Source: Sphingobium sp. EP60837 (GTDB taxonomy: Bacteria; Pseudomonadota; Alphaproteobacteria; Sphingomonadales; Sphingomonadaceae). From it: a DNA stretch of 64,000 bases. Location: positions 1,985,501 to 2,049,500 of the forward strand of contig NZ_CP015986.1 in assembly GCF_001658005.1 (NCBI RefSeq). Reading direction: 5' to 3'. The notes under the pieces are model-generated. The model did no database searches, was not told the origin of the DNA, and saw only the letters and a program-made list of their open reading frames with translations. Shown one piece after another: positions 56,392-58,683 of this stretch; position 1 is the first letter of the stretch; every line of letters begins with the position of its first letter. A program made the position numbers and the translations under genes.

Positions 56392-56699
56392 GCGCTCTTG
56401 CCCGGCGCGGGAGCGGCGGGCGCGGCAGGCGTGCGGCTTTCATATTGGCGCAGCAGCATCTCCGCGATGCCGAGCGCGCCTTTTTCAGCCATGGTGTCGG
56501 CGGTGCGCGCGTCGGACATGTCGCGGAACTGATCGGTCGCGCTGGAATCGAAGACGCCTTCGCCGCCGCCGGATTGGCGCATGGTGCCGATCATCTGGCG
56601 CAGGAAGATCGCCTCGAACTGTTTGGCGACCTTTTCCAGTTGCGCCTTTTCCGGCGATGCGGTGGGCTGCGCGCCCAGGGAAACCGAGTTGATCTGCAT
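56388..56699 (-). CDS. flgJ: Rod-binding protein (FlgJ N-terminal domain only)
   Basis: The 103-residue protein matches the rod-capping domain of FlgJ (EKVAKQFEAIFLRQMIGTMRQS, then DQFRDMSDARTADTMAEKGALGIAEMLLRQY). The C-terminal muramidase domain of enteric FlgJ is absent, as in many alphaproteobacteria, so another enzyme must open peptidoglycan for the rod. The start is either ATG 56699 or GTG 56702, both overlapping the flgI stop. Confidence 0.88.
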   Translation of the reverse strand: MQINSVSLGAQPTASPEKAQLEKVAKQFEAIFLRQMIGTMRQSGGGEGVFDSSATDQFRDMSDARTADTMAEKGALGIAEMLLRQYESRTPAAPAAPAPGKSA

Positions 56700-57946
56700 C
56701 ACAACACCACCAATTCAGCCTTCATCGCGCCTGCCTGCTTCAAGGCTTCGAGGATCGCGACCATGTCGGCGGGAGACGCCCCGATGGCGTTCACCGCTTT
56801 GACTATATCGGCCAAAGAGGCTCCACCTTTAAAATTAACCATTGGTTTCTTTTCCTGCTCGATCGAAATCGAGCTGGATGGCTCCATCGCGGTGCGGCCT
56901 TGCGAGAAGGGGGCGGGCTGGACCACGCGCGGGGATTCGTTGACGCTGACGGTCAATTTGCCGTGCGCGACGGCGGCCGGATGGATCTTGACCGCGCCGT
57001 TGATGACCACGGTGCCGGTGCGGGCGTTGACGATGACCTTTGCCGGAGCATCGGCGGGCTTGATCTCGATATTCTCGATCATGCCCATCATCATGATGCG
57101 ATCGGTCGCGCCGGGCGCGGCGGTGATGTTCACCGAAACGGCGTCCGTGGCGCGGGCGCGCTGGTCGCCAAAGGTGCGGTTGATGCCGTCTGCCACGCGC
57201 AGGGCGGTCGTGAGGTCGGCCTCTGCGAGGTTGAAAGTGAGGGTGGGCGCAGTGTCGAAGCCGGTGGCGACCGCGCGCTCGACCGTGGCACCACCGGGGA
57301 TGCGGCCCGCGGACGGGATGTTGACCGACACCTGGCTGCCGTCCGCCCCGGAAACGCCGAGGCCGCCTACGGCCAGATTGCCCTGCGACATGGCGTAAAT
57401 CTCGTTATCCGCGCCGCGCAGCGGCGTCATGATCAGCGTGCCGCCGCGCAGCGACTTGGCCTTGCCGAGCGCGGAGACGGTGACGTCGAGCCGCTGGCCG
57501 GGCTTGGAGAAAGCGGGAAGGTCGGCCGTCACCAGCACGGCGGCGGCGTTCTTGAGCGCGGGGTTGATCCCCTGCGGCAGCGTGAGGCCGAAGCGCGAAA
57601 CGACGCCCTTCATGCCCTGCGTCGCATAGTCGAGGCTGTCGTCGCCGGTGCCAGCGAGGCCCACGACGATGCCATAGCCGGTCAGCTGGTTGGGACGCAC
57701 GCCCTGGAAGGTGCCGAGGTCCTTGATCCGCTCGGCATGGGCAGGAGAGGCGAAGGCGAGGAGGGCCGCGACGGCGAGAACCGCGCGGCGTGCAAAATCC
57801 GCCGCTGCAAGGGGAGCTGGCGGCGCGAAGCGCTGACGGAGGGGTGTATGCCCCGTCGAGAGGGCGCTACCCCTCCACCACCGCTTCGCGGCGGTCCCCC
57901 TCCCCTTGAAGGGGCGGATCTGGGAGATGCGATTGAAGATGTTCAT
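56699..57946 (-). CDS. flgI: Flagellar P-ring protein FlgI, with an in-frame repeat insertion in its leader
   Basis: The 415-residue periplasmic P-ring protein has a normal mature part (RIKDLGTFQGVRPNQLTGYG onward; GGTLIMTPLRGADNEIYA; IVKAVNAIGASPADMVAILEALKQAGAM). The start at 57946 has GGAG seven bases upstream. Residues 10-50 are encoded by a 123-bp palindromic repeat (57797-57919). Removing those 41 codons gives MNIFNRISQ-FARRAVLAVAALLAF..AHA, an ordinary Sec signal. No alternative ATG, GTG or TTG exists between the insert and the hydrophobic core, so the extended leader must be translated. Confidence 0.93.
   Translation of the reverse strand: MNIFNRISQIRPFKGRGTAAKRWWRGSALSTGHTPLRQRFAPPAPLAAADFARRAVLAVAALLAFASPAHAERIKDLGTFQGVRPNQLTGYGIVVGLAGTGDDSLDYATQGMKGVVSRFGLTLPQGINPALKNAAAVLVTADLPAFSKPGQRLDVTVSALGKAKSLRGGTLIMTPLRGADNEIYAMSQGNLAVGGLGVSGADGSQVSVNIPSAGRIPGGATVERAVATGFDTAPTLTFNLAEADLTTALRVADGINRTFGDQRARATDAVSVNITAAPGATDRIMMMGMIENIEIKPADAPAKVIVNARTGTVVINGAVKIHPAAVAHGKLTVSVNESPRVVQPAPFSQGRTAMEPSSSISIEQEKKPMVNFKGGASLADIVKAVNAIGASPADMVAILEALKQAGAMKAELVVL
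57797..57919. repeat. 123-bp palindromic repeat inserted in flgI
   Basis: The ends read ATCCGCCGCTGCAAGGGGAG and, from the other side, ATCCGCCCCTTCAAGGGGAG (18 of 20 identical). The similarity continues inward through GCGCGAAGCG and GGAGGGGT, so the whole element is a near-palindrome. Its length is exactly 41 codons. It resembles in behaviour, not in sequence as far as I can tell, the Rickettsia palindromic elements found inside genes. Confidence 0.85.
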
Positions 57947-57957
57947 GGCAATCTCCA

Positions 57958-58683
57958 TCAGAAGGGGCTGATCATCGAGAAGAAGCGCTGCAGCCAGCCC
58001 TGGCGGCTTGCGCGGGCGATTTCGCCCTTGCCGGTGTAGATGATCTTGGCGTCGGCCACGCGGGTCGATGCGATGCGGTTGTCCGGGCTGATGTCGGCCT
58101 GGCGGACGAGGCCGCTGATCTGGATGAACTCGTCGCCGCGGTTGAGCGTCAGGGCCTTTTCGCCCCTCACCAGCATCGTGCCGTTGGGATAGACCGCCGC
58201 GATCGTCACGGTGATCTCGCCGGAGAGCGCGTTGGACTGAGTAGCGTTGCCCTTGCCGGTAAAGCCTTGCTCGCCGCTCGCGGCAATGTCGCTGGCGGAG
58301 AAGAGCTTGGACAGCGGGCCGGTCGAGGGCGGCGTCAGGCCGATGCTGCCGCTGCGGTTGGTGTCCGCGCTGTTGCTCTTCGTCGCCTGCGTGCGTTCGA
58401 CCAGGACGATGGTGATGATGTCGCCGACGCTCTGCGCGCGCGCGCCGCTGGTGAGGGGGGTGTAGCCCATGGACGCCTGGAAGATCGAACCGTTCGCTTG
58501 CGGAGCGGCAGGGGCGGCAATAACGGTGGGGGCATAAAATTGCCGCTCGGCATCGCGCTTTTTGCCGGCCATTGCCGGGGTGGCGGTGAGGGCGATGAGC
58601 CCCATGCCAAAGAAGATGGCAGGGAGGGGCTTCGACAAGCTCAGCCCGAACGGAGTATGGGGCGCGATCATCGTCAACCTCAC
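57958..58683 (-). CDS. flgH: Flagellar L-ring protein FlgH
   Basis: The 241-residue protein has the FlgH core (SVGDIITIVLVERTQATKSNSADTNRSG; GKGNATQSNALSGEITVTIAAVYPNGTMLVRGEK; ISGLVRQADISPDNRIASTRVADAKIIYTGKG). The GTG at 58683 overlaps the flgG stop (GTGA); an ATG at 58671 is an alternative. FlgH is normally a lipoprotein, but no lipobox Cys is present (TATPAMAGKKRD) and I find no Cys anywhere in the chain. Residues PFGLSLSKP at the leader are encoded by a repeat half element. Confidence 0.92.
   Translation of the reverse strand: MRLTMIAPHTPFGLSLSKPLPAIFFGMGLIALTATPAMAGKKRDAERQFYAPTVIAAPAAPQANGSIFQASMGYTPLTSGARAQSVGDIITIVLVERTQATKSNSADTNRSGSIGLTPPSTGPLSKLFSASDIAASGEQGFTGKGNATQSNALSGEITVTIAAVYPNGTMLVRGEKALTLNRGDEFIQISGLVRQADISPDNRIASTRVADAKIIYTGKGEIARASRQGWLQRFFSMISPF
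58627..58653. repeat. Half copy of the FGLSLSKP-type repeat inside flgH
   Basis: GGGGCTTCGACAAGCTCAGC followed by CCGAACGG matches the arm of the palindromes at 60294-60399 and 39942-40053. It encodes PFGLSLSKP on the minus strand within the flgH leader. Confidence 0.75.

Follow-up and report, generated by a model that had tools for sequence, protein, structure and literature searches.

The signal peptide of the flagellar P-ring protein FlgI in Sphingobium sp. EP60837 contains an in-frame palindromic repeat of 123 bp, which is probably a copy of a dispersed sphingomonad repeat that landed behind the flgH stop codon and is translated in a tolerant leader, an entry that has recurred with other repeat families and in the flgH and fliP leaders. 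The window analysed is a stretch of 64,000 nucleotides (contig NZ_CP015986.1, positions 1,985,501 to 2,049,500), to which coordinates refer unless another locus is named. The palindrome was first reported in an initial annotation made from the DNA letters alone; its presence in the flgI signal peptide is confirmed, and the interpretation offered there is partly supported. The insert is not an isolated oddity: unrelated repeat families, here termed B and C, occupy the flgI leader elsewhere, and the flgH and fliP leaders are also affected.

A palindromic element in the FlgI leader

The flgI gene (minus strand, 56699..57958; Pfam FlgI) and flgH, encoding the L-ring protein (minus strand, 57958..58683; Pfam FlgH), overlap in the sequence TGATG (minus strand, 57956..57960), where the flgH stop codon overlaps the first flgI ATG at 57958. 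The second ATG, at 57946, is the likely flgI start, since it has GGAG upstream and agrees with the start position in relatives. Counted from this ATG, the leader read from the frame comprises 71 residues up to AHA (minus strand, 57734..57946), after which cleavage is predicted, or 75 residues counted from the first ATG. It is made up of nine codons, the 123-bp element and then 21 codons with an ordinary hydrophobic core ending in AHA, in keeping with the annotated insertion into a signal peptide and with a leader of about 70 residues with which FlgI would be exported.

The element (minus strand, 57797..57919), recognized by its sequence, pairing, recurrence and fold, is 41 codons long (IRPFKGRG...PLAAAD) and open in the flgI frame from end to end; coordinates, length, frame and the lack of a stop had all been given correctly. 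Its end arms, 57797..57816 and 57900..57919, pair at 18 of 20 positions (90% complementary across 20 nt), which bears out the near-identical inverted ends described earlier, and enclose an inner stem (57821..57893) with arms of 25 nt at 57821-57845 and 57869-57893 that are 84% complementary. The further description of the element as palindromic throughout holds for the fold, the transcribed strand folding as RNA to -85.5 kcal/mol where shuffled sequences average -57.5 (z -6.9; none of 200 shuffles as good), but not for an ungapped mirror, since only 70 of 123 positions are symmetrical in that sense. A known RNA family was ruled out, as no Rfam model matched above its gathering score and those that matched at all were miRNA models far below gathering.

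Family A as a dispersed repeat

The search covered three repeat families, A, B and C (locus L052, with no usable element, was excluded from the profile). Family A, defined here, is a dispersed repeat matched at the DNA level (E <= 0.001) in 69 out of 94 Sphingobium genomes, and among the matches listed per genome many span positions 1-123 with identical ends; the consensus of the aligned copies runs ATCCTCCCCTGCAAGGGGAGGTGG...GGTCCCCCTCCCCTTGCAGGGGAGGAT. Because a unit with identical ends recurs elsewhere in the genus, the element is more than a chance palindrome, an explanation ruled out by this recurrence together with the fold (z -6.9). Family A was also found at 177 places in 16 plasmid records from Sphingomonas, Sphingobium and Novosphingobium, and Sphingobium sp. 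RAC03 (G071) carries at least 40 copies, of which 30 were examined and one, that in the flgI leader, read as coding. In the EP60837 genome the element occurs once in full and once as a partial match of 47 bp, and a search of this genome with the exact pattern of the inner stem found no copy besides the one in flgI. Used as a protein query, the insert matched 2 proteins out of 12 candidates, both of them FlgI, so that in that frame the search turned up no further protein of comparable length.

Filled and empty FlgI leaders across Sphingobium

Stretches containing flgI were obtained from 93 Sphingobium genomes and 92 were read (G086 had no flgI match and G092 was unparsed); those of G019 and G082 end at contig ends, in G019 within the leader. 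An intact palindrome of family A, B or C occurs in 14 of the 92 flgI leaders, scattered over the gene tree, whilst the other 78 lack an intact element and have a median length of 29 residues (56 of them measured). The extended leader is thus confined to a minority of relatives, and an old conserved FlgI extension is ruled out. Family A lies in the flgI leader of G000, in which it is read in one orientation, and of G003, G019, G041, G071 and G091, in which it is read in the opposite one; family B (VIPAKAGIH...SRLRGND) lies in that of G011, G043, G047, G055, G065 and G076, and family C (PFGLSLSKP...) in that of G009 and G105. Stumps of elements are present in two more leaders, G051 and G060, the latter seen by eye alone.

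The comparison of close relatives proposed in the initial annotation yielded empty leaders in most of them. The flgI leader of S. soli (L072) represents the empty site of the filled leaders of S. abikonense (L080) and S. lactosutens (L074), with a net difference of 126 nt, the copies in these two species being opposite in orientation to that of EP60837. The nearest species on the tree (G010 and G054) are also without the element, their leaders being too divergent for the exact site to be placed. In all 13 measurable inserted leaders the frame is continuous with the start at the flgH stop, and all 27 profile matches over the 92 flgI/flgH stretches fall in those two leaders. Twelve of the 13 inserted leaders are 69-75 residues long from the first in-frame start, that of G091 being 83, and these lengths are similar despite family cores of about 41, 29 and 27 codons for A, B and C, respectively.

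A quick maximum-likelihood tree was built from flgI and flgH, 26 of its 92 rows being without the flgH part; on it, the minimum number of leader-state changes was at least 12 for flgI, 7 for flgH and 16 for fliP (61 rows). A single clade was rejected for the five A+ rows (p 3.6e-5) and the six B rows (p 1.9e-5) of flgI, groups that were named after the data had been seen. Part of the changes may represent losses, conversion or gene transfer and the count of insertions is not fixed by them; two orientations of A, together with B and C, amount to four distinct events at minimum.

Compared with S. tyrosinilyticum (P0002), the EP60837 insert shows differences at 5 of 32 residues and a 9-residue gap, reflecting an internal 27-bp deletion in the S. 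tyrosinilyticum copy that retains the frame, against 1 of 344 residues in the mature part. Compared with P0001 the figures are 3 of 41 and 19 of 344, respectively. At the residue level, the insert has thus changed fast relative to S. tyrosinilyticum and not relative to P0001, with the frame kept both times. The frames used in flgI have net charges of 0 to +7; unused open frames are equally positive, so that charge gives no sign of selection.

The flgH and fliP leaders and other sites

Family C, whole or partial, is present in 12 of 92 flgH leaders, EP60837 included, where profile and site reading place an arm within the flgH leader at 58631..58653 that reads PFGLSLSKP. In Blastomonas aquatica (L118) the flgH leader contains family A. 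The fliP leader (Pfam FliP) was read in 61 genomes (60 plus EP60837) out of 93 with a match, and carries family B or C in 28 of these, counting weak and partial copies and the studied genome. Across 80 named loci of 5-9 kb we found 21 copies, seven in the flgI leader, five in the flgH leader and nine between genes, with none outside these leaders and gene gaps, the flgI-flgJ junction included. By position and neighbouring stops, six of the nine intergenic copies lie between flgE and flgF and three behind flgL (a weak copy at L080 1392-1474 was placed from position alone). The flgE-flgF gap, with a B or C copy in L063, L071, L075, L076, L080 and L127 (6 of 80), is a recurrent non-coding landing place.

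A genome-wide search for further copies inside genes, also suggested in the initial annotation, was productive for family C. The 51 family-C sites of EP60837 gave nine candidate frames by positional GC (scoring by codon usage, over 49 sites, was weak and left one true gene near zero). Three of the nine read as coding and L147 may do so; in the others the start lies past the element or the frame is spurious. The coding copies lie in the flgH leader, the fliP leader and an acyltransferase in L182. In the last case (L182:1189-2505, outside the window) the protein is a 2-oxoacid dehydrogenase acyltransferase, and family C is read in frame in the linker that joins its lipoyl domain to its E3-binding domain, a second kind of tolerant place for coding repeats. 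As the coding sites among the 51 comprise flagellar leaders and one linker only, a general favouring of signal peptides does not follow. Six weak family-B-like sites, with 2-3 mismatches, are also present in this genome.

Translation and possible use of the element

According to the initial annotation no start codon lies downstream of the insert and the cell must translate the repeat. The first statement is borne out for the four codons checked: ATG, GTG, TTG or CTG occurs in the EP60837 flgI frame at codons 1 and 5 and not again until codon 87, within the mature protein, so that the element would be translated unless initiation relies on a rarer start codon. The flgI of S. lactosutens (G003) resembles that of EP60837 in having no ATG, GTG or TTG within or past its element, and for these two genes translation of the repeat is strongly indicated. 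The second statement applies less firmly to G041 and G071, where flgI has one or two ATG/GTG/TTG codons inside the element and none behind, to G091, where an ATG directly follows the element, and to family B copies, which have in-frame ATG codons in several flgI leaders, some of which may therefore start inside the element. In G091 flgI (L237) the in-frame ATG directly follows GGGGAGGAT, the terminal sequence of the family-A element, which looks like a ribosome-binding site. In G003 fliP (L326) a stop closes the frame just ahead of a family-B copy; the start must fall inside that element, barring a sequencing error.

These cases bear on the alternative that the element is untranslated, with the start of FlgI lying within the element or past it and the long leader being a wrong start call. 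Wrong start calls are argued for many 5'-terminal REPs in PMC3733652, and would suit the in-frame ATG codons found within the family B copies of several flgI leaders, right behind the G091 element and further on in G009, as well as the closed G003 fliP frame; yet with no ATG, GTG or TTG in or past the element of EP60837 and G003 flgI, and with the upstream start still in frame in each of the 13 inserted leaders that could be measured, we consider this explanation improbable.

It also seems rather unlikely that the insert is useful, whether as an RNA hairpin between flgH and flgI or as a charged peptide that tunes ring-protein coupling, expression or export. A very stable fold, the presence of three families at one place and leader lengths as alike as 69-75 residues in 12 of 13 all point towards such a role, but an intact element is missing from this leader in 78 of 92 congeners, and the insert differs from that of S. 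tyrosinilyticum at 5 of 32 residues and by a 9-residue gap, set against 1 of 344 in the mature part. Flagella can be lost and a 41-codon insert is unusual for a signal peptide, so the insert might instead mark the decay of a flgI gene heading for loss; with the frame open, the FlgI domain whole and the mature part 343/344 identical to that of another species bearing the same insert, we regard decay as highly improbable.

A proposed route into the leader

We favour a dispersed repeat tolerated in the FlgI leader, for which the position of family A relative to genes suggests a route. In RAC03, using a crude gene caller and 30 of the at least 40 copies (29 measurable, flgI copy included), the median distance to the facing 3' end is 21 bp, and 16 of 29 copies lie within 50 bp of it compared with 14% of random intergenic points; copies are also found near 5' ends, 9 of 26 within 50 bp compared with 17% of random points. 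The flgI element starts 38 bp past the flgH stop in EP60837 and 41 bp past it in RAC03. Palindromic repeats would thus settle mostly between genes, shortly behind stop codons, and since family A sits near stops and the flgH stop codon shares bases with the flgI start in a packed flagellar operon, a settling copy would enter the first codons of flgI. Copies that keep the frame would survive, the n-region of a Sec signal peptide tolerating added residues that are removed after export; the cell would translate the repeat and export FlgI with its 71-residue leader, and unrelated families would enter recurrently, also into the flgH and fliP leaders. Forty-one extra N-terminal codons may be hardly bearable for a cytosolic protein and bearable for a signal peptide.

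More tentatively, n-regions at overlapping gene junctions could be a standing refuge that palindromic repeats keep entering, rebuilding leaders and sometimes supplying a start codon. Were this so, the similar length of inserted FlgI leaders across three families would mark a limit or an optimum of the export machinery. Three repeat families and three flagellar genes, with filled and empty sites, provide a natural experiment on Sec n-region capacity, which bears equally on how selfish repeats enter genes. Inserted leaders also urge caution in start-codon annotation. N-terminal copies are often dismissed as wrong start calls, according to PMC3733652, and at least two flgI genes with no ATG, GTG or TTG in or past the element run counter to this as a routine view.

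Comparison with known systems

Among titles and abstract openings, with few subscription papers covered, we found none dealing with palindromic repeats located in signal peptides of bacteria or in flagellar genes of Sphingobium, and a joint search on Rickettsia palindromic elements and signal peptides found nothing. Like the FlgI leader, the extended signal peptide region (ESPR) found in type V secreted proteins places a long n-region before an ordinary Sec hydrophobic core. The ESPR is a conserved motif, whereas the FlgI extension is a repeat that differs between species.

GTAG- and CGTC-tagged REPs, as described in PMC3733652, are small palindromes shortly behind stop codons, some within ORFs and more commonly at the NH2 end; the genomes covered there include those of Sphingomonas wittichii and Sphingopyxis alaskensis, and the paper makes no mention of secretion, the periplasm or flagella. 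Family A, by contrast, has ends ATCCTCCCC / GGGGAGGAT that bear neither tag, and family B, a separate element, resembles CGTC-tagged REPs in beginning, by eye, with CGTC in L071, L075 and L127. A RAYT gene (PF01797) is present in 23 of 94 Sphingobium genomes, with none in EP60837 or in G071 with its at least 40 family-A copies, and four RAYT loci scanned had no A, B or C copy beside them; a RAYT-driven REP is unsupported on these grounds. Bacterial MITEs (ERIC, QMITE and others) are non-autonomous elements whose ends are inverted and which in some cases form in-frame fusions with genes (PMC10969869). The family-A element shares with them its terminal inverted repeats (18/20), but no parent transposase was found for it, and no clear target-site duplication was seen by eye at the filled and empty flgI leaders compared, few sites being comparable.

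Palindromes that lie within coding sequence have been described in Rickettsia and in some REP-rich genomes, and the Rickettsia palindromic elements are in-frame palindromes of about this size in functional genes (PMC10969869 and PMC3733652). The parallel drawn in the initial annotation holds for behaviour, the FlgI element likewise being an in-frame palindrome of similar size inside a coding gene. The organism differs, as does, as far as is known, the sequence family, and in Sphingobium the coding copies sit in flagellar signal peptides and most copies are intergenic.
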